Positions 2,360 to 49,240 of a stretch of DNA of 64,000 bases are shown in pieces. Positions within the stretch are counted from its first letter, which is position 1; each line of letters starts with the position of its first letter. Source of the stretch: Candidatus Nitrosacidococcus sp. I8 (GTDB taxonomy: Bacteria; Pseudomonadota; Gammaproteobacteria; Nitrosococcales; Nitrosococcaceae); contig NZ_OX241534.1 of NCBI RefSeq assembly GCF_945836005.1, forward strand, positions 1,474,275 through 1,538,274, read 5' to 3'. Under the pieces are notes generated by a model. That model was not told where the DNA came from, made no database searches, and saw only the letters and a list, made by a program, of their open reading frames with translations. A program made the translations under genes and the position numbers.

Positions 2360-3624
2360 CTACATACTCACTGTAAATAACTTATTAAGTTTCTTGGATA
2401 CAAGAATTCCCTTCAGTTGGGCATAATCGGGTAACCCATTCTTATAGGGGGGATAATCTCCCCCGTAAATTAGTGGTAAAAGATAAATACGTGCCTCTTC
2501 CGTAATACCAAATCCATCTGGAGTAATAAAATTTAGAGGGAATTTTTTTCAATATTAGCTACGTTTTTTAGGGGTGTTTTCCCAATTTCCCAGCGATAAG
2601 GGCTATTAGAAGTACGGACAATGGTCGGCATAATTGCATTTTCACCTTTTATTGCAAATTCTACCGCTGCTTTTCCTACTTCGTAGGCTTGTGTTACGTC
2701 CGTTTGAGATGCAATATGTCGTGCTGATCGCTGTAGATAATCAGCTACTGCCCAATGATATTTGTATCCTAATTTTTCTTGTACCATGTTTGCGATAACG
2801 GGAGCTAATCCCCCTAGTTGAGCATGACCAAAGGAATCGTATTTACTGGTTGCTGATAAAAATCCCCCTTTATCATTGCATACCCCTTCTGAAGCTACAA
2901 TGACGCAGTATCCGTAGTTTTTAACGCAGTCATCGACTTTTTTAAAAAATTGCTCAGGTTGAAATGGAATTTCTGGAAATAAAATAATATGGGGAGCATC
3001 TTCTGGTTTTTTTTCCCTAATCCTCCTGCTGCGGCAATCCAACCTGCATGACGACCCATGACTTCTAAAACAAATACTTTGGTTGAGGTGAGCGCCATGG
3101 AAGCTACATCCAATCCTGCTTCCTGTGTAGATAAAGCCACATATTTAGCAACAGAGCCAAACCCAGGACAGTTATCCGTAACCGCTAAATCATTATCAAT
3201 AGTTTTGGGAATACCAATACAAGTTATAGGATATTCTAGCTGCTCTCCGATTTGGGAAACTTTATAAGCGGTATCTTGGGAATCTCCACCACCATTATAG
3301 AAAAAATAACCAATATTATGGGCTTTAAAGACTTCAATTAAACGCTCATATTCAGCTTTATTTTCTGCGAGCCCCTTAAGCTCTATAACGGCAAGAGCCA
3401 AACGCTCCACCAGGGGTATAGCGTAGGGCTGTAATAGTATCATCAGGTTCTTGGCTAGTGTCGATCAGATTTTCCGTGAGAGCTCCAATAATTCCGTTGT
3501 GCCCAGCATATACTTTACCAATCTGCTGAGGGTATTTTCGTGCTGTTTCAATTACCCCGCAGGCTGAAGCGTTAATTACTGCAGTTACACCTCCAGACTG
3601 GGCATAAAATGCGTTTTTTATCAT
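2360..3624 (-). pseudogene. pfp: pyrophosphate-dependent 6-phosphofructokinase, three frameshifts
   Basis: Reads as a PPi-type phosphofructokinase (fructose-6-phosphate to fructose-1,6-bisphosphate using PPi) spread over three frames. The start at 3624 follows a good GGAGG. Segment one ends in GGAFGSCRY; the frame changes by one extra base near 3381-3384. Segment two holds the YNGGGDS and PKTIDND motifs and GRHAGWIAAA, then shifts at an A8 run (3007-3014), where A9 would restore frame. Segment three shifts at an A7 run (2543-2549), where A8 would restore the C-terminal reading ITPDGFGITEEA down to a stop at 2360-2362. Repaired, it is about 421 residues, the usual family length. It is a pseudogene, a slippage-rescued gene, or carries homopolymer miscalls. 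Confidence 0.85.
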
Positions 3625-19440: not shown

Positions 19441-20592
19441 TTATTTAGAACGAGATCGCACCACTTTAGGAAAACGAGTTTCCATGTCCACTCTTAGAAC
19501 TAAGGAAATAGCTACGCAAATGACGATACTACTACTACCTCCTGCACTCATTAAGGGCAGAGTTAATCCCTTGGTAGGCAATATCCCCATATTCACCCCT
19601 AAGTTGACAAAAGCTTGTAGCCCAATCCAAATACCCAGCCCATAAGCGAGATAACTTCCAAAAAAGTGCCCTCTTCGCTCTGCTGCCCAACCAATCATAA
19701 AAGTACGGTAAATGAGTATTGAAAATAAAATAATTACAGCCAAGCTACCCGCTAATCCTAGCTCTTCTCCGATTACTGCATAAAGAAAATCGGTATGTGC
19801 TTCAGGTAAATAAAACAATTTTTGTACACTATCCCCTAGTCCTACCCCTAACCATGAACCACGGCCAAAAGCAATCAGTGCTTGAGTGAGTTGATAACCG
19901 CTATTTAAAGGATCATCCCAAGGATTTAAAAAAGAAGTTAGCCGAAGTACTCGATAAGGAGAATGCCAAGCAATAGCTGCAAGCGATGATCCCCCTAAAA
20001 TAACTAGGAAAAGGAAATACCGAAGAGGAGCTCCTCCTAAAAAAAGCATTCCCATAATTGTAGCAAATAGAACTGCAATGGTACCAAAATCTGGTTCTAG
20101 TAAAAGCAATCCACTGATAATTGTAAACAATCCAATAGGAAATAAAAAACCTCTCATTGCTGTTCGTACAATATCCTTGCGACGTACTAAATAACCAGCA
20201 AGATAAATAATCATAAATAATTTAATCAATTCTGAAGGTTGTAACCTAATGGGACCTACCCCTAGCCACCTGCGGCTTCCATTAATTTCTAAGCCAACCT
20301 TTGGTATAAGTACTAATATCAACAATCCTGCACTTATAAATAAGAAAACAGGTGCAGTTCTTTCCCAAAAAATTAGCTTAACTTTTAGAGCACTAAAAGC
20401 TGCTATAAGCCCTAAAGATAAAAAAATACCCTGCCGCCAGAAGTAGTAGGTAGGCATGCCAAAATTATTTTCAGCAATAGCAATAGAGGCTGATCCTACC
20501 ATTACCCATCCAAACCCTAGTAGTACAAGAGCAGATCCTAACAAGTAAGGATCAAGAGAGAGTTGCTGATTTAGAGGTGTATCTTGTTTCAC
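19441..20592 (-). CDS. ftsW: peptidoglycan polymerase FtsW (SEDS)
   Basis: Septal glycosyltransferase paired with FtsI. The 383 residues form about ten membrane segments. Family signatures include the NGSRRWLGVGPIRLQPSEL region, YQLTQALIAFGRGSWLGVGLG, and the C-terminal PLMSAGGSSSI. Start ATG overlaps the murD stop by 4 bp. Confidence 0.96.
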   Translation of the reverse strand: MKQDTPLNQQLSLDPYLLGSALVLLGFGWVMVGSASIAIAENNFGMPTYYFWRQGIFLSLGLIAAFSALKVKLIFWERTAPVFLFISAGLLILVLIPKVGLEINGSRRWLGVGPIRLQPSELIKLFMIIYLAGYLVRRKDIVRTAMRGFLFPIGLFTIISGLLLLEPDFGTIAVLFATIMGMLFLGGAPLRYFLFLVILGGSSLAAIAWHSPYRVLRLTSFLNPWDDPLNSGYQLTQALIAFGRGSWLGVGLGDSVQKLFYLPEAHTDFLYAVIGEELGLAGSLAVIILFSILIYRTFMIGWAAERRGHFFGSYLAYGLGIWIGLQAFVNLGVNMGILPTKGLTLPLMSAGGSSSIVICVAISLVLRVDMETRFPKVVRSRSK

Positions 20593-21920
20593 GGCTGAAT
20601 AGCTCGAACCGCTTGTACAAATGCTTCGCCTCTAGCTTCAAATCCTGAAAACATATCAAAACTAGCACAGGCAGGGGATAAGAGGACGCAATCCTCAGAA
20701 AAAGCTAAACGATGGGCAGTATTTACCGCCTCAATCATGCTGCTTACTTGATAAACGGGAGTGCTACCAGCAAGATCTGTTGCTATCCGATCAGCATCTC
20801 TTCCCATTAAAATAAGAGCTTTTGCTCGTTCTGCTAATGGTTTATATAAGGGGCGAAAATCAGCCCCTTTACCTATACCCCCTGCGATTAAAATAATCTT
20901 CCCATGACAAGGCAATCCCTCAAGTGCCGCTAAGGTAGCACCCACATTGGTTCCTTTAGAGTCATTAAACCAATCTACTCCATTTATACAGGTAATCGTT
21001 TGACATCTATGAGGTAATCCGTGAAATTCCCGTAATGCATTAGCCATTGCTGGTAGAGGTAATCCAATAGATTCCCCAAGTGCTAACGCAGCCAATGCAT
21101 TTGCCCAATTGTGCCTCCCTTTTATAGGGAGTTGCTCTATAAGGAGTATTAATTCATTTCCTTTAGCAAGCCATATTTGGTTATTTTGTTCTTGTATTCC
21201 ATATTCATCTGTTTTAGGACGATTTAAGGTAAAGTAAATACAATGACTATTTGAATCACTAAAGGAAGATAGATAAGGATCGTCTTTATTTATTACAATT
21301 GTTTTAGCATTTTGGTAAATTCGTAACTTAGCTTCGATATAGGATTCTATATTGGAATATCGATCCATATGATCAGGGCTAATATTTAAGATGCAAGAAG
21401 ATTCTAGTTTTAAGGTATAGGTAGTTTCTAATTGAAAACTAGAGAGTTCTAAAACATAAAAATCTGGCGTAGGCTTCTCTAATAAAGTAAGGGCAGGTAC
21501 TCCTAAATTTCCACCTGTAAGTACTTGCTTACCTGCCTTACGTACCATAGCATCTACTAGTAAAGTTACTGTGCTTTTTCCATTAGATCCTGTAATTGCT
21601 ATAACTGGTGCCTTAGCATAGTGAGCAAATAGTTCAATGTCCCCTAAAATAGGGATTCCTATTCTTTGAGCTTCTAGAATAGATGAATCGTGAATGGAAA
21701 CTCCGGGGCTAACAATCAAGCGATCTGCAGTAGACATAATGCTTAAGTTAAATAAGCCTAAATGAATAGGTATCTTAGGGAATTGCCTTTTAAATTGAGT
21801 AAGTTCAGGTGGATTTTCTCGACTGTCTATGACAGTGAATTGACAATTTTGCTGAGATAGAAATTGGGCACAGGATAATCCTGTTTTGCCAAGACCTATA
21901 ATGACAGTGATAGGATTAAT
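20589..21920 (-). CDS. murD: UDP-MurNAc-L-alanine:D-glutamate ligase, apparent ATT start
   Basis: Adds D-Glu to UDP-MurNAc-L-Ala. The ATP loop ITGSNGKSTVTLL and the ELSSFQLET segment are clear. An ATG-based reading starts at 21737 and gives 382 residues, which would lack the N-terminal UDP-MurNAc-Ala-binding domain. Yet the same frame continues upstream through a good MurD N-terminus (VIIGLGKTGLSCAQFLSQQ, then VIDSRENPPEL) for 61 more codons. No ATG, GTG or TTG occurs in that stretch before an in-frame stop. The codon at the right distance from AAGGAGG is ATT at 21918-21920, giving a 443-residue protein of normal length. AUU initiation is rare but known (infC). Confidence 0.88.
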   Translation of the reverse strand: MNPITVIIGLGKTGLSCAQFLSQQNCQFTVIDSRENPPELTQFKRQFPKIPIHLGLFNLSIMSTADRLIVSPGVSIHDSSILEAQRIGIPILGDIELFAHYAKAPVIAITGSNGKSTVTLLVDAMVRKAGKQVLTGGNLGVPALTLLEKPTPDFYVLELSSFQLETTYTLKLESSCILNISPDHMDRYSNIESYIEAKLRIYQNAKTIVINKDDPYLSSFSDSNSHCIYFTLNRPKTDEYGIQEQNNQIWLAKGNELILLIEQLPIKGRHNWANALAALALGESIGLPLPAMANALREFHGLPHRCQTITCINGVDWFNDSKGTNVGATLAALEGLPCHGKIILIAGGIGKGADFRPLYKPLAERAKALILMGRDADRIATDLAGSTPVYQVSSMIEAVNTAHRLAFSEDCVLLSPACASFDMFSGFEARGEAFVQAVRAIQP

Positions 21921-21936
21921 TTTATAATTCCTCCTT
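21918..21936 (-). promoter_or_regulatory. strong ribosome binding site selecting an ATT start for murD
   Basis: On the minus strand AAGGAGG (21936-21930) is followed by nine bases and then ATT (21920-21918), in frame with the MurD N-terminal domain. The alternative ATG in another frame upstream runs into a stop after seven codons. Position and strength of the site decide the start. Confidence 0.7.
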
Positions 21937-21975
21937 AGGCAACATTATCAAAATAGGGTAATTTTATTTAAGATT

Positions 21976-23055
21976 CTAGCGAATTTTTAGACTAGATAAC
22001 CCAATAAGAACTAAAATAACAGTAATAATCCAAAAACGAACGATCACTCTAGGTTCCGGCCAACCTTTTATCTCGAAATGGTGATGTAGTGGTGCCATTT
22101 GAAAGATTCGCTTTCCAGTTAGTTTATAGGATATTACTTGTAAAATCACAGAAATAGTTTCAATGACAAAAACACCGCCCATAATAGCAAGGACTAATTC
22201 TTGCCGTATTAACACAGCAAGTACTCCTAAAGCTGCTCCAAGTGCAAGAGCCCCCATATCCCCCATAAATACTTGAGCAGGATAAGTGTTGAACCACAAA
22301 AATCCTAATCCAGCTCCTACTAAGGATCCACAAAAAACAACTAATTCTCCTGCACCGGAGATGTAGGGAACACCCAAATAGTGGGAAAATCCTACATGAC
22401 CTGTAACATAGGCAAAAATTCCTAGAGCACCACCTACTAATACAGTAGGCAGAATAGCTAATCCGTCTAAGCCATCGGTCAAATTTACTGCATTACTACT
22501 ACCTACAATTACGAAATAAACAAGTAAAATATAATAGCTCCCTAAATTAATTGCTATACCTTTAAAAAAGGGAACAATCAGTACTGTTTCTGCAGGTATG
22601 GTCGCAGTAGAGTACAAAAATAGTGCAGCACCCAAAGCAATAATGGATTGTCCAAAATATTTATGCCTTGCTGAAAGGCCTTTTGGGTTTTTATAGACAA
22701 GTTTTTTATAGTCATCTATACAACCTAAGCTACCGAACAACAACATAACTGCTAAAGTTAACCAGATATATCGGTTAGTCAAATCTGACCAAAGTAAGGT
22801 TGTCATTGTGATAGCCAGTAAAATAAGTCCTCCCCCCATAGTAGGAGTTCCTATTTTACTAAAATGGGTTTTAGGTCCATCTATACGTATAGGCTGACTC
22901 ACTAGCATACTTAATCGACGAATTACGATTGGACCTATAGCTAAAGAAATGATAAGTGCAGTTAGTACACTTAAAACAGCTCGTAATGTAAGATACTGAA
23001 ATACATTAAATCCTCTATTTAAGGTAGTTAAGTGCTCAGCTAAATATAGCAGCAT
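21976..23055 (-). CDS. mraY: phospho-MurNAc-pentapeptide transferase MraY
   Basis: Integral membrane enzyme making lipid I on undecaprenyl phosphate. It has about ten membrane segments in 359 residues. The family motifs are visible: [10 protein letters not shown], the [10 protein letters not shown] active-site segment, [14 protein letters not shown] and the C-terminal MAPLHHHFE loop. It lies 18 bp after murF, and a 55-bp gap separates it from the murD start. Confidence 0.97.
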
Positions 23056-39854: not shown

Positions 39855-41345
39855 TTACTCCTTGCTTAATAAGCTATGGCTCATCCCATAGCTAAAATAT
39901 AGGAATAACCCTAGCCCCATCCAGAGAATAAAACGCCAAAGAGTAGTGATAGGAAGGCCGCTTAATAAAACAAGATGACCTTCCAGCTTCCAAGGCCAAC
40001 CAATAATCAAAAATAAAGAAAATAAAACCCCTGCCGGTGCAATGATCCAAATCATGGGCATTTTAAACGCCCTAGGCAATTCTGGGTGCTGTATCCGCAA
40101 AATAAACACTGCACAACAAATCACAATAAAAGCACTTAAGGTACCGATATTGACCAGTTCAGTTGCCTGCTCAATAGGTAAAAATCCTGCTGCTAAAGCG
40201 GTGAAGATGCCAAGGATTAAGGTAGGTCGATAAGGAGTTTTATAGTAAGGGTGTATTTTGGAAAACCATCTAGGTAACAGCCCATCTCGAGCTAAAGCAA
40301 ACCAAATTCTTGCAGCTCCTAATAAGAAAGCAAATAAGACGCTAGTCATTCCCATAATTGCTGTAATATTTATAATTCCTCGTACCCAATGAAGATTAAG
40401 GGCTTTAAATGCTGCATCTACCGGAGCATCACTATTTAGCTCAGAATAAGGCACCAGCCCAGTAAGCACTAAGGACACAGCAAGGTATAAGACAATAGAT
40501 ATAGCAAGGGAAAATAATACTGCTTTAGGTAAATCCCGCTTAGGATATTTTGATTCTTCCGCTGTTGTGGTCAAGGTATCGTAGCCAAAGCAAGCAAAAA
40601 AAACGATACTAGCAGCAGAAAATACTCCAGGTCAACCAAAGTGAGGGATGCCCCGATCATCTTCTATATTAGATGGTATAAAGGGTTGCCAATTTATTGG
40701 GTCAATATAAAAAATTCCAACTAAAATGACGAGCAAAACCCCGATCATTTTTAGAATCACAATCAAACTATTTACTCTCATTCCCCAAGTGGTTTTTAAG
40801 GTAAGTAACCCACTGACTCCTAAAGTAATCAAAGCAGCAATTAAATTAAAAACCTTACCACTATCAGGATTAGTAGGATCCCAAGCACCTTGTAAAGTGG
40901 TGGGGAGCTCTAACCCAGTAAATTGGGTAATCAACGCTTGCATATAACCGGACCAACCAATCGCAACCACTGCCACAATCAAGCTATACTCTAAGAGTAA
41001 ATCCCAGCCAATAACCCATGCACATAACTCCCCTAGCACCGCATAACTATAGGTATAAGCACTACCAGTGACCGGAATCATGCTAGAAAATTCCGCATAG
41101 GATAAAGCAGCACAGCTACTGCCTAACCCTGCAATAATAAAACTAAACACTACCCCGGGACCTGCATTAACTGCAGCTTGTTGTCCTGCTAAGACAAAAA
41201 CCCCTACCCCAATAATAGCTCCAATCCCAACCGCAACAAGTTGCCATAACCCAAGGGTACGTTGAAATCCATGGGAAGATTGATCGCTCTCTACTTGTAA
41301 TTGGATAACGGATTTACGGCGAGTTAAAGCGGTAAATAAATTCAT
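39855..41345 (-). pseudogene. APC-family amino acid permease interrupted by an in-frame TGA
   Basis: A 12-helix type permease of about 496 codons. The first 237 residues (AVGIGAIIGVGVFVLAG near residue 40) end at TGA 40634-40632. The same frame continues without any shift: PGVFSAASIVFFACFGYDT, then TTTAEESKYPKRDLPKA to the normal end. The stop lies in a position where the family often has Trp or a similar residue, so TGG to TGA is the simplest explanation. No homopolymer is involved. It is probably a pseudogene unless UGA is read through or the base is a miscall. Confidence 0.85.
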
Positions 41346-41498
41346 AACCCCCTAATGTACCTGAATGAAGGCTTCAGGAATAGCTAATTAGAAACTTTAT
41401 GAAAGGCACTTATCTGAGTTAAGCGGTTATTTTATTCTCTATATCAATGAGATGGTAGAATGATTGAAACCCATTTTACGCATAAAAAGGATATAAAT

Positions 41499-43595
41499 AT
41501 GAAAACAGATAATTGCTCTATCAGTGATGTTTTAGAGAAAAACTCTACTTCTTTTTTCATCCCACCTTTCCAGAGATCTTACGCTTGGGGTAAGACTGAA
41601 ATTGAGCGCTTTTTCGATGATATGCTACGAATTATAGAATCAGAGCTAGATCCGAAACAGATCGATAAGCTCGAACATTTTTTTGGAACTCTTGTAATTA
41701 AAAATGAAAATGAAGTGCTTGCCACAAAATCTATTGTAGTAGATGGACAACAGCGACTTACCACTACCTTATTATTTTTAATTGCATTACGGGATTTAGA
41801 AAAAGATACAAATAAACAAAATCTTATCACCCAAAGGTATCTGATTAATAGTACCTCTACTTTTCAAGACAAGATAAAACTAAAACAAGTCTCTAAAGAT
41901 TGGGAAGCATATAAAGCCCTAGTAAACAAAGAATCCCCTGAACAACTCGGAATTATTTGTAATGCCTATGGGCAATTTGCCAATTTAATAAAAAAACAAG
42001 CTCGACCAGAAATTGAACTTGAGCACTATATCACTGCCATCAGAAGAATGAATGTTGCGGTAATTTCCCTAGATGAACGACCCTACAAAGGCGAAGATCC
42101 GCAAATTATCTTCGAAACCCTAAATTCACTAGGTAAACCGCTTACCCTTTCAGATTTAGTAAGAAATTTTATTTTGCTTAATATGAAGAGCGATGATCAA
42201 GCAAGAATCTATGAGCAGATTTGGTACCCTAAAATTGAATCTATCCTAGGGGATCATATCTCGCATTTTTTCCGTGACTATTTACAATATAAAGTATCAC
42301 GCTTAATTAAAGTAGTCAGCGATAACAATACAAAAGAGATCTATCATCAGTTTAGAGGTTTTGTAAATAAAGAATTTACTGATCGTAGTCAATTTATTGG
42401 CGATATTATCCAGTATGTAAATTGGTATCACTGGATAATTAATACAAATCCAAAAGAGATTGGCCAAATCGCTCACAGTGCTGGCAATGACAAAGAAATA
42501 AAAGAATTACTTAGAAATATCTTCCATGATATCAAAAGCGATCCTTTTAAACCCTTTGTTTTAGGATTGTTGGAGTACCACCAAGATAAAGAAAAAGCAG
42601 TACATTTAAGCGATGATAAGCTCATTTCTATTTTGAAAATAATTTGTACTTACTTAATTCGTAGAAGAACTCTAGGACTAACTCAAGGAGAAAATAAAGA
42701 GATAGTTTTATTAAGTCACCGTATTGAAGAATTAGCCGATGAAAGTACCTCTATGCTTGAGCTACTCTCAAATATGCCATATAACGCAAGGCTGCCTAAT
42801 GATGGGGAAATTAAAAAAAGACTTCAAGAAATGGATTTTTACAATAGCGTAAAAAACTACGGAAAATTCATTTTTGGAAAAATAGAAAAATGTAACACAA
42901 AAGGAGTTGTTAATTTTCGTAATTCAAAAATTACTATTGAGCATATTATGCCACAAAAATTAAATAAAACATGGGAACAGGAATTAGGGGATAATTTTTC
43001 TGAAATCCATAAAAAATATCTTCATAATATTGGGAATCTAACTATTACAGAATTCAATTCTGAAATGGGTAATAAATCATTTACCGAAAAAAAAGAAAAA
43101 TTTAATCAATCTGCACTATACTTTCGGCTCGATATTATTAATCAGGAAAAATGGAATGAAGAAAGTATCTTAGCTCATCAAAATAGTATGATCACTTGGT
43201 TCTTGAATACATTTTCTTTACCTGATAAATATAAGGAAAAAGATAATTGGAAGATTAACTCATCTACTACTAAGACAAATACCTTTTCACCCCTTGATGA
43301 AGAGGCAGGTGAGATTGCAACAGGGAATAAGCCTGAAAAAGTGAGTATTGATGGCACTGAATACCCTACTAAATCATGGCAAGATGCTTTTTTAGCATTC
43401 CTTCTCTATATTAGAAATAGCTCAGAATTTGATTTTGAAATTATATTAAATAATCAAAATGATCTCTTTGGAAGAGAAAACATCATAGTAAAATGGGTTG
43501 CTTTTCAGGATTTGGTTGAAAATGAAAATGAAAATGATTTAGAAAAAAATATAAAACCTTCACAGGGAAGTTTTGGCATGAAGAAACAAATCTAA
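41499..43595 (+). CDS. GmrSD-like DUF262/DUF1524 nuclease, frameshifted near the 3' end
   Basis: Fusion of DUF262 and DUF1524 as in type IV restriction GmrSD and related defence nucleases. I prefer the ATG at 41499 with AAGGA 7 bp upstream over the ATG at 41460; residue numbers here count from 41460. DUF262 motifs are IPPFQRSYAWG (34-44) and VDGQQRL (94-100). The HNH-type nuclease is EHIMPQ with His495 and HNIGNL with His522-Asn523. At T4 (43571-43574) one extra T would extend the frame through WHEETNLSD to a stop at 43715-43717. That longer end looks native, with codons like those upstream. Confidence 0.82.
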   Translation: MKTDNCSISDVLEKNSTSFFIPPFQRSYAWGKTEIERFFDDMLRIIESELDPKQIDKLEHFFGTLVIKNENEVLATKSIVVDGQQRLTTTLLFLIALRDLEKDTNKQNLITQRYLINSTSTFQDKIKLKQVSKDWEAYKALVNKESPEQLGIICNAYGQFANLIKKQARPEIELEHYITAIRRMNVAVISLDERPYKGEDPQIIFETLNSLGKPLTLSDLVRNFILLNMKSDDQARIYEQIWYPKIESILGDHISHFFRDYLQYKVSRLIKVVSDNNTKEIYHQFRGFVNKEFTDRSQFIGDIIQYVNWYHWIINTNPKEIGQIAHSAGNDKEIKELLRNIFHDIKSDPFKPFVLGLLEYHQDKEKAVHLSDDKLISILKIICTYLIRRRTLGLTQGENKEIVLLSHRIEELADESTSMLELLSNMPYNARLPNDGEIKKRLQEMDFYNSVKNYGKFIFGKIEKCNTKGVVNFRNSKITIEHIMPQKLNKTWEQELGDNFSEIHKKYLHNIGNLTITEFNSEMGNKSFTEKKEKFNQSALYFRLDIINQEKWNEESILAHQNSMITWFLNTFSLPDKYKEKDNWKINSSTTKTNTFSPLDEEAGEIATGNKPEKVSIDGTEYPTKSWQDAFLAFLLYIRNSSEFDFEIILNNQNDLFGRENIIVKWVAFQDLVENENENDLEKNIKPSQGSFGMKKQI

Positions 43596-43801
43596 GCGAC
43601 TCAACCCTTCTTATTCATATCAATATATCTGCTGCAACTTGTGTAAATAGATTAGCAAGTGTTATGAACAAGTACGGGCTACCAAAAAATTTTATTGAAA
43701 TAACATTAAAGCGTTAATAATTTTTTTCTAGCTAAACTGCTTGTAAAATCCAAAGCCATACAATCCTAACAAACCATCTCCAACCTAAATAAATATTAAA
43801 A

Positions 43802-44668
43802 ATGGATGTGTATTTTAAATATAAATATGATGAGCTGTTTAATCCTACCCTGCAGGCACTGAAAAATCTGGGTAACTCTGGATCGGTTAGTGAAATTGAA
43901 GCAGAAATTATTAAAATTCTGCAGCTTAGTAACAATGAAGTAGATGAAATTTTGAGAGGGAGTACCACTAAACTAGCCTGTAGACTCTCTTGGGCAAGAT
44001 ACTATCTTAAAGATTATGGATTACTAGAAAATTCTTCGCAGGATATTTGGTCTTTAACAGATAAAGGACATAAAGTTACTCAAGTAGATCCAGAAGAAGT
44101 AAAGCGATTTATCAAGCAAAATAACCAGCAAATAGTTAAAGAAAAAGCTCAAATATCAGAAGAATCAAATAGTAGTTCTAACAATCAAATTGATGAAGTA
44201 AATGAGCTTACTTGGCAAGATCAGCTCCTAGAAACTATCAAGAAAATTACTCCTGATCAATTTGAAAAGTTGTGTCAACGGCTACTCAGGGAACTTGGAT
44301 TTAAAAATGTGGTAGTAACTGGAAAATCTAATGATGGGGGGATTGATGGCAAAGGGATTTTAAGGATTGGTCATGTTTTATCCTTTCATATAGTATTTCA
44401 AGCCAAAAGATACCAAGGCACTGTTTCTTCCTCAGTGGTGCGGGATTTTAGGGGATCAATGGAAGGTCGAGCAGAAAAAGGCTTAATTATGACCACGGGG
44501 GTATTTAGTCTTGAAGCTCAAAAAGAAGCAGAAAGACCAGGGGCAAAACAAATTGATTTGATAGATGGTAATGAGTTTATAGAACGACTCAAGGAACTAG
44601 GATTAGGGGTAGAAATTGAAATGGTAGAAAAAGTAAGCATTAAACAAGATTGGTTTAAAAACTTATAG
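43802..44668 (+). CDS. Mrr-like restriction endonuclease
   Basis: A 288-residue protein with Mrr layout. Residues 1-95 look like the Mrr N-terminal winged helix, then a Ser/Asn-rich linker to about 135, then the catalytic domain. The PD-(D/E)xK site is seen as Asp182 in NDGGIDG and Gln200-x-Lys202 in VFQAKRY, the QxK variant typical of Mrr. Such enzymes cut methylated or otherwise modified DNA. It follows the GmrSD-like gene on the same strand, an apparent defence pair. Confidence 0.87.
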   Translation: MDVYFKYKYDELFNPTLQALKNLGNSGSVSEIEAEIIKILQLSNNEVDEILRGSTTKLACRLSWARYYLKDYGLLENSSQDIWSLTDKGHKVTQVDPEEVKRFIKQNNQQIVKEKAQISEESNSSSNNQIDEVNELTWQDQLLETIKKITPDQFEKLCQRLLRELGFKNVVVTGKSNDGGIDGKGILRIGHVLSFHIVFQAKRYQGTVSSSVVRDFRGSMEGRAEKGLIMTTGVFSLEAQKEAERPGAKQIDLIDGNEFIERLKELGLGVEIEMVEKVSIKQDWFKNL

Positions 44669-44681
44669 AGAATAGTTTTTC

Positions 44682-44712
44682 AAAAAAAAGGCTGAAGAAC
44701 ATACCCCAGCCT
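44682..44712 (-). terminator. rho-independent terminator on the minus strand
   Basis: On the minus strand AGGCTG and CAGCCT pair across a 12-base loop and are followed by eight T. It ends the run from the truncated secreted-protein copy and lies 13 bp past the opposing mrr stop. Confidence 0.6.
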
Positions 44713-44734
44713 CATCAAATAAATAGAGAATATT

Positions 44735-45112
44735 TATTTTAAACTCACTAAGAAGCCCCAGCCCCACAAAAAGCGATTCCGGCATCGATCCAACCCTCAT
44801 CAAGCAGAGGTTCCAGTACCGAGCGATCGGACACATAACGAAAACCGGACTCTTTACCTTGAGCAGGACCATTATTGTAGGCATGGTATATTGGAGTATA
44901 AGAATCAGGGCATACTTGAGTCCCATCAGTGATTTGAGCAGGAATTGCCATAAAGGGATACTTCTCAAAATTCCATCGAGGGGTATTCTCTGGAGTTTGA
45001 GCTTGTAGATCTAAGAGCTGATTACATTCACTCGGAGAAATAGTCCAATAATGACTATTAGGTCCGGGGTTGAGGGATTCATAAAATTAGCACACATAAG
45101 CCCCCATACTAC
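44735..45112 (-). pseudogene. truncated 3' copy of the secreted Asp-box/DUF5648-like gene
   Basis: These 378 bp align without gaps to 49752-50129, the 3' end of the intact secreted-protein gene, at about 90% identity by hand count. The reading frame is kept (SHYWTISPSECNQLL through GIAFCGAGAS, stop at 44748), except that a CAG is replaced by TAA near 45088-45090. Only the last ~120 residues remain; the 5' part has been replaced by the restriction module. No start site is seen. It is a paralogue, since a fresh target duplication would be identical. Confidence 0.88.
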
Positions 45113-45159
45113 AGGGTATTATCATCCATTATTTTCGATCTCATCATGATGTGTTGGCT

Positions 45160-45220
45160 GGTAGCTCTTTTGCATTTTTAGTCTGGCTTTGTGCGGTTGG
45201 AAAAATGCAAATATACTACC
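45160..45220. repeat. imperfect palindrome at the end of the restriction module
   Basis: Two 20-base arms (45160-45179 and 45201-45220) pair: GGTAG with CTACC outside and TTTGCATTTTT with AAAAATGCAAA inside, with a 4-base mismatch between them and a 21-base loop. It lies between the truncated paralogue and the Z1 gene stop. It may be a recombination or terminator element and could mark the edge of the inserted DNA. Confidence 0.55.
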
Positions 45221-45236
45221 AAAAGTAGTGGGTGTT

Positions 45237-47129
45237 TCAACCTTTCACATCGTAAAAACAAGCATCGCCGGGGAACTTAATGTTAGGTATCCAAAACGGT
45301 TTCCCTTTCCAACCTTTTGAAGTTTGTCCGTTCACACGATACAAAGTCAGAACTAATGCCCTGTTGAGTTTGTCGCCAATTTTTCTGTCAGTAGGCGATA
45401 GTAATGTTCCTGTACCGCTTGAAATATCTCTGTCCCTGCGAATGATTAAATAACATTTCGTACTTGGTCTTTTTACGCTTAACGATTGTACGCAATTATT
45501 AAATTTCTCATTGTCCCAATCTTCTATGTCCGTACTGCCAACATGTTTTAAAAGTTGTTGAATGGTGACAAACGTTGTGTTTTCTATTTCTTTTTCGTTT
45601 TTGTAAGATGATAACAGTTCGTCAACTTGTTCAGCGTTGTTTTCAAGTGGATTATTTGGAAAGAAGTTTACACCTCCCGCAACAAAATTCAAAAACTCGT
45701 TATCAACAACATTTTTACGAGTAGGTCGTATGTTTTTAGGGTAAATCAACTGTATTCCGTCCAAGCCAAACTCTTCTATTTGTTTTATCAGAACACGGTT
45801 TGAGTTGTTTAATTCCGTGAATAATCTATGCAAAGTTGGCGGAATATAAATTCTCATCAAGCCTGCGCCTCTATCATAACCGAACATTCGAGAATGTTGC
45901 CAAAACGTGTCTGCTTGTGGTGTTTTTGATTTACGACAATAATAAATAGTTTGTAGTTTTGATATTGTTATTCCTCTGCCTAAACTGTTTCCGCCAACGA
46001 TAATATTATATCCTTTGTTATAATCTACCTCTATTGAAGATGTTGAATTTAGTATAACAGTCTTGATTTTTTGCTCGAATAATAACGAAGTTATCTGTTG
46101 TTTTATGTCCTCAAAATTTGTTATGTCGGGTTTTGACATTTGTAAATCAAGCCATGCCCTACGTAGATTGTCTTCAAATATTGTACTTTCCGTTTCTAAT
46201 TCTTCAAGTAGGAAATTCAAATGTTCCCCAATTTTGTTTGCAAAAATTTCGTGATCATTTATTCTTACGCTTGGGTGAATTAGAAAATTACAAGTGTCTT
46301 GTTTACTTTCATTACAATATGCACAAACTACAAGAAACGACATTAAACTATCTCGTAATCCCTGCGGTATAAATTCGCTTTCCTGTTTTACTTTATCTAA
46401 TTCGTTTTCTTCAGTGTAGCGAATGCAATAAGATGTCGGTTCTGCATAGAAAAAATCGCCACCTAAATAATTGTCGCCCGGTTTAAAATAATTTACAAAT
46501 GCAGGTTTCCAACCCGAAATTTCAGATTGCAAAAGTATTGATTGTGGTGTTGCTGTAACTTGAAAATAAATGCTGCTGCTTGCTAAATCTTTGATTGAGG
46601 CAAGATGATTATTGATTGTACTTACTCGTTTCTTATTTATCAATGTATTCAAACTTGCTGCATCTGCCTCATCATCTACAATAACAATAGGATTTGATGA
46701 ACAATAATTAGAAGAAGATAAATGATTACGCCATTTTTTGAGAACATTTGTATTCTTTTTAAGAACGACAAGAATAGTTTTTTTCATTTCTGAATTAAAA
46801 AACGGCACATCATCATACTCACCAAAGACATCAAATGTTGTCAGACTGCTGATTGCTCTTTCGTAGGTTTGTTTTTGTAAATAAACATTGTCAGTCGTAA
46901 GCATTAGAAAAATAGGAAAACACTCATCTGCTAATTTTGCAATTATGCCTAATGTTTGGGCAGTTTTTCCACTCTGAACATTGCCTAATAAAAGACCGTT
47001 AATGTTGTTTGTATAATCAAAGTGTTGTTGAATATTTGAATAAACAGAAGTTGATGTATCTATAATTGTTCTTACAAGACCTTGATTGTCAATTTTATTT
47101 GTATATTCTGATAAATTACTAACACCCAT
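45237..47129 (-). CDS. Z1-domain ATPase/helicase-like protein of a restriction system
   Basis: A 630-residue P-loop protein. Walker A GNVQSGKT is at 49-56, Walker B VDDEAD at 151-156, and motif III-like VTATPQS at 191-197. The Z1 region follows; RGITISKLQTIYYCRK and the arginine-finger-like QHSRMFGYDRG sit near 385-420. Z1 proteins are known from predicted restriction systems, where they are thought to act as DNA-dependent motors. It begins 4 bp after the nuclease stop, so the three genes form one operon. Confidence 0.82.
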   Translation of the reverse strand: MGVSNLSEYTNKIDNQGLVRTIIDTSTSVYSNIQQHFDYTNNINGLLLGNVQSGKTAQTLGIIAKLADECFPIFLMLTTDNVYLQKQTYERAISSLTTFDVFGEYDDVPFFNSEMKKTILVVLKKNTNVLKKWRNHLSSSNYCSSNPIVIVDDEADAASLNTLINKKRVSTINNHLASIKDLASSSIYFQVTATPQSILLQSEISGWKPAFVNYFKPGDNYLGGDFFYAEPTSYCIRYTEENELDKVKQESEFIPQGLRDSLMSFLVVCAYCNESKQDTCNFLIHPSVRINDHEIFANKIGEHLNFLLEELETESTIFEDNLRRAWLDLQMSKPDITNFEDIKQQITSLLFEQKIKTVILNSTSSIEVDYNKGYNIIVGGNSLGRGITISKLQTIYYCRKSKTPQADTFWQHSRMFGYDRGAGLMRIYIPPTLHRLFTELNNSNRVLIKQIEEFGLDGIQLIYPKNIRPTRKNVVDNEFLNFVAGGVNFFPNNPLENNAEQVDELLSSYKNEKEIENTTFVTIQQLLKHVGSTDIEDWDNEKFNNCVQSLSVKRPSTKCYLIIRRDRDISSGTGTLLSPTDRKIGDKLNRALVLTLYRVNGQTSKGWKGKPFWIPNIKFPGDACFYDVKG

Positions 47130-47133
47130 TTTA

Positions 47134-48153
47134 TTAAAATTCGATTAACCATAAATTAGGGTCGTTAGTTGCGGACAACTTCATTTCGCTTCTTCCGTAT
47201 TGTAATAAAACATTTTCAGTTACAGGCGTTCCCATTGTAAGTGCATTTTTCTGTTCCAATTTACCTTTTATCCACTTGCCTAAAACTAATAAGTCATCAG
47301 CAGAACGAAGGTTTTTACCATAATCGCCCGTAGTTTTACAACTAAAACGCCAACCATCGTCTGTTACGACATCAAAAGTTCGTTTTACTGGATAATTTGG
47401 TTGCCGTGTTATAGTTACTGGCACTATAATTTCGACTTCATACCAAGGTCGAGGCATTTCAAAACCTCTTTGATTTATTCTACCTTTCCCAAAATAAACA
47501 TTTAGGTTACTCTTTGCTTCTGTTTTCATTGGAATATCAAAAGAAACATCAGTCTTTGTATTCCATATTTGAGTATGTTCTGTCGGATTTAACTTTTTTA
47601 CACCATAATGATTTTCTAATAGTTCATTGTTTTCATTAAATTTATCAATTTGAAAATCTGTAATTGGCTTGCCGAGCTTACCGAATAAATCTCGAATAGA
47701 TTTATCTATTGTTTTAGCGTTGTCTTGCTCAAAAAAGCAATCCGCCTCATAAATTTTATTTGCTGATAAAAGGCTGCTTAAATTAGATGAGCCTATAATC
47801 GCACTAAAACATTGTTTTGTATCGCAAAACGAATACATCTTTCCGTGAAATCGCACTGCATTTGATAAGTATACAATACCTCTGTTTTGCTCTTGTAAAG
47901 TTTCATTCAATGCCAAAGCACAATCAAATTGTTGTTTTGTGAAGCCGTCAAAGTAGTGCATACCAATTAGCATTTCAACATGAGGTTTCTCATTCACTTC
48001 AGCCATTTTCTTTAATTCAATCAAAGAAGCAGAAGAAATAAATCCTGTGGCAATTCTGATTAGTTCGGCTTTTGCCAAATTCTCAAGCCAAACCTTTGGC
48101 GTTGTTCCGTTTGAAAATTTTGCAGGTTGATGATTCGACAGTAATAATTCCAT
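47134..48153 (-). CDS. PLD-type restriction endonuclease, NgoFVII/BfiI-like
   Basis: A 339-residue protein. Residues 1-160 form a phospholipase-D nuclease domain with one HxK motif: His103 and Lys105 in FHGKMYS, then GSSNLS at 121-126. This is the layout of metal-independent BfiI-type enzymes, which dimerise to build one active site. The C-terminal part, about 200-339, fits a B3-like DNA-binding domain. Family resemblance to NgoFVII is by recall. It lies 10 bp after the methyltransferase and is the likely cutting subunit. Confidence 0.8.
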   Translation of the reverse strand: MELLLSNHQPAKFSNGTTPKVWLENLAKAELIRIATGFISSASLIELKKMAEVNEKPHVEMLIGMHYFDGFTKQQFDCALALNETLQEQNRGIVYLSNAVRFHGKMYSFCDTKQCFSAIIGSSNLSSLLSANKIYEADCFFEQDNAKTIDKSIRDLFGKLGKPITDFQIDKFNENNELLENHYGVKKLNPTEHTQIWNTKTDVSFDIPMKTEAKSNLNVYFGKGRINQRGFEMPRPWYEVEIIVPVTITRQPNYPVKRTFDVVTDDGWRFSCKTTGDYGKNLRSADDLLVLGKWIKGKLEQKNALTMGTPVTENVLLQYGRSEMKLSATNDPNLWLIEF

Positions 48154-48163
48154 AGGTAAAGTA

Positions 48164-49240
48164 TTAAGCAGTTATCATTGCCAATCGTTCAGAAAAAGGC
48201 ATTGCAATAAGATCTTTCCTTAACTGCTTCAAATCAGTTGTTTTGTATTTATCCATAAAAAGAGGTAGAAGGGTTTTTGCCAATTCTTCAACTCCTTTTG
48301 GTGGGACAGCATTTCCAATTTGTCTCCGTACTTCTGTTGTAGACCCCTCAAAAACGAAATCATCAGGGAAAGATTGTAATCTTGCTCTTTCTCTATTTGT
48401 TAATGCTCGTGGTTCGGGATAGTGATAGCCCCAAGTTCCACCACCACCTGCTGCAATAATCGTTTTTGCAGGTTCATCAAGTTTTAGCCTGCGATAAACG
48501 TGACTTATCAAGCCTTTTACATAAAGAGGGTGGTTTTTTGGTATATCTGTGAAATTTCCACCCTCTGGAATTAGGCTTAACATTTCACGAGTTTTGTCCG
48601 TTATTCTCAAAAGTTCGTTATTGTATTTAGTTTTTTCAACCCCTTTTAATGCTTCTCCTGCTGTAAAATATGGTTTTCCGTTTTCTATTCCGTGAGTTGG
48701 TTGTGGGTGTTCAAATTCAAAACCTGTATCCACTCTAATTCCGACAATCAAAACCCTTTCTCTAAACTGTGGCACTCCGTACTCTGCAAATTTATAAAGC
48801 TTGGGAATAACAACATAACCCGGTTTGATTTTATCAAAGTCCTCTATGATTTGTTGAATTGCTTTTTTCTCGTTTGCTGTCAACAGCCCTTTTACGTTTT
48901 CAGCGACAAAGACTTTTGGTTTTTTCGCATCAACAAAACGTAAAAAACTTTTGTATAAATTTCCTCTTTCGCCTTTAAGTCCAGGTTGTTTCCAAATCAT
49001 AGAAAAATCTTGGCAAGGGAAACCACCCAATATTAGATCGCAATCAGGAATAGATTTGTCTGTATAAGGGTCAATCTCTTCAATATCTTTTTCAACGATG
49101 ATGTCGCCAAAATTTTTCTTAAAAGTTTCGCAAGCCCAATGAGCAAAGTCATTAGCCCAAACAGTTTCATAGCCTTGATTGTGAAAACCAAGGTCAAGCC
49201 CGCCACATCCTGAAAAGAGGGACACTATTTTAGGTTTCAA
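48164..49240 (-). CDS. DNA (cytosine-5) methyltransferase
   Basis: A 358-residue C5 methyltransferase. Motif I is LFSGCGGLDLGF, motif IV GGFPCQDFS with catalytic Cys76, motif VI AENVKGL, motif VIII QFRERVLIVG and motif X RRQIGNAVPP. The target-recognition region between VIII and IX spans only about 130 residues. It is the first gene of the minus-strand module and would protect host DNA from the PLD nuclease. The recognition sequence cannot be read from it. Confidence 0.95.
   Translation of the reverse strand: MKPKIVSLFSGCGGLDLGFHNQGYETVWANDFAHWACETFKKNFGDIIVEKDIEEIDPYTDKSIPDCDLILGGFPCQDFSMIWKQPGLKGERGNLYKSFLRFVDAKKPKVFVAENVKGLLTANEKKAIQQIIEDFDKIKPGYVVIPKLYKFAEYGVPQFRERVLIVGIRVDTGFEFEHPQPTHGIENGKPYFTAGEALKGVEKTKYNNELLRITDKTREMLSLIPEGGNFTDIPKNHPLYVKGLISHVYRRLKLDEPAKTIIAAGGGGTWGYHYPEPRALTNRERARLQSFPDDFVFEGSTTEVRRQIGNAVPPKGVEELAKTLLPLFMDKYKTTDLKQLRKDLIAMPFSERLAMITA

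Follow-up and report, generated by a model that had tools for sequence, protein, structure and literature searches.

The murD gene in the window, the whole stretch of 64,000 nucleotides analysed from Candidatus Nitrosacidococcus sp. I8, is probably translated from a genuine AUU start codon at position 21920, located behind a strong Shine-Dalgarno (SD) sequence. This reading is based on an intact and conserved N-terminal domain, a perfect SD, the lack of a canonical start codon in the frame, and the same layout in the infC gene of the same genome. The murD start would then be a further case of a known, rare arrangement in which a weak start codon is placed behind a strong SD. The features of the region are as follows.

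20589 to 21920, minus strand: murD coding sequence read from the ATT, 443 residues plus stop; open frame, with TIGR01087 and the Pfam MurD domains matched at full length.
21918 to 21920, minus strand: ATT, proposed as the start, with 21918 as its third base; the only in-frame near-cognate codon near the SD, also recovered by the blind scan.
21930 to 21936, minus strand: AAGGAGG, perfect SD, 9 nt before the ATT; identified from the sequence and from how often the motif occurs within coding regions and at gene starts.
21922 to 21945, minus strand: out-of-frame ATG TTG CCT AAG GAG GAA TTA TAA (MLPKEEL*), a possible relic start; spacing compared with relatives, alignment ambiguous.
21735 to 21737, minus strand: first in-frame ATG in the list of open reading frames, giving a conventional gene-finder product of 382 residues.
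21976 to 23055, minus strand: mraY, the upstream neighbour, ending 55 nt before the ATT; assigned from the dcw cluster order and the sequence.

The murD frame was open for 451 codons, from just after a TGA-TAA to the TGA at 20591–20589, and reading from the ATT at 21920–21918 gave 443 codons to that stop. No ATG, GTG or TTG was present before codon 62, the first in-frame ATG being located at 21737, 61 codons after the ATT. None of the eight preceding codons (TGT TGC CTA AGG AGG AAT TAT AAA) was a start codon, and the frame included no canonical start for 69 codons altogether. The AAGGAGG at 21936–21930 was followed by the nine-base spacer AATTATAAA and then by the ATT. The in-frame codons 3' of the SD were AAT, TAT, AAA, ATT, AAT, CCT and ATC, of which the ATT was the only near-cognate codon within usable distance of the AAGGAGG. 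Both features of SD-assisted AUU initiation were thus found in murD: a strong SD at usable spacing ahead of an in-frame AUU, and conserved N-terminal coding with no in-frame canonical start upstream. A sequence-only reading of the window had described this layout (AAGGAGG, nine bases, 443 residues, first ATG 61 codons on) and the absence of ATG, GTG and TTG over the 61 codons, and both descriptions were correct when the coordinates were re-read.

The 443-residue product matched the NCBIfam murD equivalog TIGR01087 almost completely (residues 6–439 against model positions 3–440 of 441; 432 bits, cut-off 212), and the N-terminal, middle and C-terminal Mur ligase domains were all matched (PF21799, PF08245 and PF02875). 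The Pfam MurD-like_N match covered residues 5–93 (model positions 3–88 of 88, 8.1e-26), and solved MurD chains aligned from residue 5. Residues 10–61 were 42–50% identical to eight relatives and the remainder 53–66%, which indicates that the protein sequence is constrained in its N-terminal part, too. The sequence-only reading had placed a real MurD N-terminal domain upstream of the first ATG, and Pfam, TIGR01087, the solved chains and the relatives all agree with this. The genome carries a single murD, and a search for a further copy in viral contigs found none.

Same-strand coding sequence of the genome amounting to 588 kb contained 59 copies of the AAGGAGG motif, approximately one per 10 kb, so the chance of a copy falling in the right 7–8 positions is about 7e-4. 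A blind scan was made for (A/G)GGAGG located 4–10 nt before ATT, ATC, ATA or CTG, followed by at least 100 open codons, in frames that lacked a canonical start upstream and would be lengthened by 15 codons or more. The scan covered 864 kb of the genome (about 47%) together with the infC locus, which was added on purpose, and murD and infC were the only matches. When the SD hexamer was replaced by others of equal composition, 4613 sites gave two matches; one of these was evidently murD, found again by way of the overlapping GGAGGA. As the same strong-SD scan did not exceed the background in the nearest relative, G001, the scan was given limited weight and was not used as support alone. A hairpin formed by AGGA and UCCU across the ATT (-5.5 kcal/mol) was not significant (z -1.7 for 30 nt and -0.2 for 43 nt).

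The comparison set included five other genomes of the family, the genus being represented by the source genome alone. The non-canonical start codon was not conserved in these close relatives: in all five, murD can begin with an ATG or GTG 17 codons before GLGKT, in each case without a good SD. Readable murD loci were compared across the order and outside it, 91 in all with that of the window, and every one but the latter has a canonical codon ahead of the GxGxTG loop. In each of the five family relatives the ATG or GTG, followed by CTG, TTG or CTC, sits 51 nt before GLG, while the ATG-TTG of the window is 49 nt before it and therefore out of frame. This ATG-TTG at 21945–21940, overlooked in the sequence-only reading, opens the short frame MLPKEEL*, the stop of which ends one base before the ATT. 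The MAFFT DNA alignment placed the ATG at 21945 out of register with the ATG of the sister genomes, leaving the homology ambiguous. Judged by its position, the out-of-frame ATG-TTG may be a remnant of the ancestral start, shifted out of frame by an indel, or it may have arisen by chance. If it is a real relic, the SD–AUU site must already have carried initiation.

In infC of the source genome, GAGGAGG is located 8 nt before ATT ATT (minus strand, position 1746 of the locus stretch), and in the relatives (A/G)AGGAGG is located 8 nt before ATC. In four of the relatives (G001, G002, G003 and G005), another gene, treY (malto-oligosyltrehalose synthase), had no ATG, GTG or TTG ahead of its conserved PRATYR motif. 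In G001 its ATT lies behind GAGGAGG and was the best match of the blind scan in that genome, and three Nitrosococcus-like genomes have ATC at or beside the same place, in one of them (G003) behind AAGGAGG. The treY gene of the source genome itself has ATG. These sequences suggest that an AUU/AUC start is conserved in treY of the sister genera, and starts of this type thus appear to occur in the family also in other genes than infC.

Two other genes of the source genome had neither a canonical start nor a strong SD. One is a kinase at about genome position 1364962 (minus strand), which we take to resemble AmgK; it had no canonical start for 49 codons of its conserved N-terminus, the candidates being CTG and ATA. 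The other is an ATP-grasp-like gene, in which no canonical start precedes the conserved N-terminus either in the source genome or in G001; in the relatives, a GTG, ATG or TTG lies farther upstream. These two cases show that a missing canonical start alone is no proof of an AUU start.

The source genome is a single contig of 1,848,551 bases with about 37% G+C over the part read, and it includes a match to PF02461 (ammonia monooxygenase family). The Illumina and Nanopore reads of Ca. N. urinae I8 were obtained from an enrichment (PMC9574496). A frameshift census compared 864 kb of the genome with 1.6 Mb of G001 in 673 ortholog alignments including 214,676 residues. Three frameshifted genes were found in the source genome (a phosphofructokinase gene with three shifts and two others) and three in G001. 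As there were so few frameshifts despite more than 400 homopolymers of seven or more bases in the aligned coding regions of the source genome, the assembly appears well polished. The stretch around the murD start included no homopolymer beyond AAAA, and with approximately five shifts in 644 kb, the 25 bases in question have a chance near 2e-4 of carrying an indel artefact. An assembly error at the murD start looks unlikely.

The phosphofructokinase gene (window 2366–3624, minus strand) had three frameshifts, two of them at A8 and A7 runs, and was intact in G001. The split gene had raised the suspicion of an error-ridden long-read assembly, which was rejected, frameshifts being exceptional across the 673 ortholog alignments; the gene is probably decaying. 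An amino-acid permease gene (window 39855–41345, minus strand) has an in-frame TGA (HFG*PGV) where a homologue has Trp, and the G001 copy is broken too. The region at window 41460–49240 is a restriction-modification island with a GmrSD-type endonuclease, a possible Mrr-like protein, a Z1-domain protein and a C5 cytosine methylase.

The main rival to the AUU start is that the codon at 21920 is really ATG, either miscalled or hidden by a minor variant in the consensus, in which case translation would be ordinary (MNPITV..., SD spacing 9). One base change would be enough to yield a textbook start, the I8 genome originates from an enrichment and partly from Nanopore reads (PMC9574496), and a single-base miscall is less tightly bounded than an indel. 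However, few errors were visible in the 215,000 aligned residues. Furthermore, a perfect AAGGAGG was found at only three of the approximately 490 ordinary starts of the genome, where the SDs were mostly weak, yet such a motif is typical of non-canonical starts such as infC, which also counts against a miscalled ATG. We consider this explanation unlikely, and the view of the sequence-only reading that a G-to-T substitution or miscall would be simpler is not favoured by the low visible error rate of the assembly; its proposal of an AUU start remains the best supported one, with infC in the same genome and treY in the sister genera. What that reading did not take into account is an indel 5' of the SD. 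The true start could be the ATG at 21945, with a protein beginning MLPKE, if an indel of one or two bases between it and the SD region were an assembly error and the AAGGAGG were present by chance. The distances to GLG (51 nt to ATG or GTG in five of five family relatives, 49 nt to the ATG-TTG of the window) agree with this, but indel artefacts are rare (three frameshifted genes, more than 400 homopolymers of seven or more bases), no local run exceeds AAAA, the ATGs do not clearly line up in the alignment, and the ATG at 21945 has no SD. Such an indel error seems quite improbable.

The same ATG at 21945 could also be used together with a +1 shift at TTA-TAA stimulated by the AAGGAGG, in the manner of prfB. 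The SD-like element two bases before TTA, the stop TAA and the direction of the shift are all as this would require. Re-pairing of the P-site UUA on UAU would nevertheless leave the middle position mismatched, a UAA with A after it is not the weak stop of a prfB-type shift, and the layout is absent from the relatives; together with the missing SD of the ATG, this makes the frameshift very unlikely. Production of MurD from the ATG at 21737 alone, as a protein of 382 residues, corresponds to the open reading frame call when start codons are limited to the canonical ones. The 61 upstream codons are, however, open and conserved and account for a large part of the substrate-binding N-terminal domain, and murD is present as a single copy, and we regard a MurD of this length as hardly credible.

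In the favoured reading, initiation at the AUU, deduced from the sequence features, would proceed with the perfect AAGGAGG nine bases upstream positioning the 30S subunit and holding the AUU in the P site. The strong SD would compensate for the weak codon, as at infC, and the initiator tRNA would be accepted despite the third-position mismatch. Methionine would be incorporated at position 1 (MNPITVIIGLGKTG...) and the full 443-residue MurD made, its predicted N-terminal tryptic peptide being MNPITVIIGLGK, with or without formyl-Met. By analogy with known weak starts, initiation at murD is expected to be roughly ten-fold below AUG and sensitive to the level of IF3. The IF3 brake raised in the sequence-only reading is such an analogy. 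In a wider reading, which is unlikely, the AUU start would throttle an essential step of wall synthesis in the acidophilic gammaproteobacterial ammonia oxidisers by tying MurD output both to growth state and to the level of IF3, and murD would belong with infC and treY of the sister genera to a small IF3-sensitive group of strong-SD AUU/AUC genes.

AUU starts outside infC are rare, and an essential single-copy enzyme with such a start would provide a natural test of enzyme dosage set by a weak codon. Gene-finders that accept only ATG, GTG and TTG would call a MurD of 382 residues without most of the substrate-binding domain, and they would equally shorten treY in the sister genomes. Truncated start calls of this kind propagate to work on essentiality, structure and expression.

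Among the known systems, infC with its AUU or AUC start is similar to murD in having a strong SD 8–9 nt ahead and no in-frame canonical start, and it is found in the same genome. It encodes IF3 and is autoregulated, whereas murD by itself offers no feedback of this kind, and the relatives begin the gene at a canonical codon. The +1 frameshift of prfB shares with murD the SD-like element close 5' of an in-frame stop and the entry to the main frame by +1, but the murD TTA re-pairs poorly in +1, there is no CUU-UGA, and the arrangement is not conserved in the relatives. In Escherichia coli pcnB, the AUU start has been shown by experiment to limit translation (Binns and Masters 2002, as cited in PMC13009471); like murD it is an AUU start in a gene other than infC, but it is known experimentally and the gene is not a cell-wall gene. 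In Staphylococcus aureus, non-canonical starts have been mapped by Ribo-Ret and reporters: cvfC1 (AUU) and ccpN and citZ (AUA) give about 10% of AUG expression in poor medium, cvfC1 and ccpN behind extended SDs (PMC13009471). These cases are from another phylum and their sites were mapped experimentally, whereas the murD start is proposed from the sequence. Comparable to murD, citZ encodes an enzyme of metabolism and its weak start is confined to one lineage; a non-canonical start is usually conserved, but it need not be, as citZ shows.
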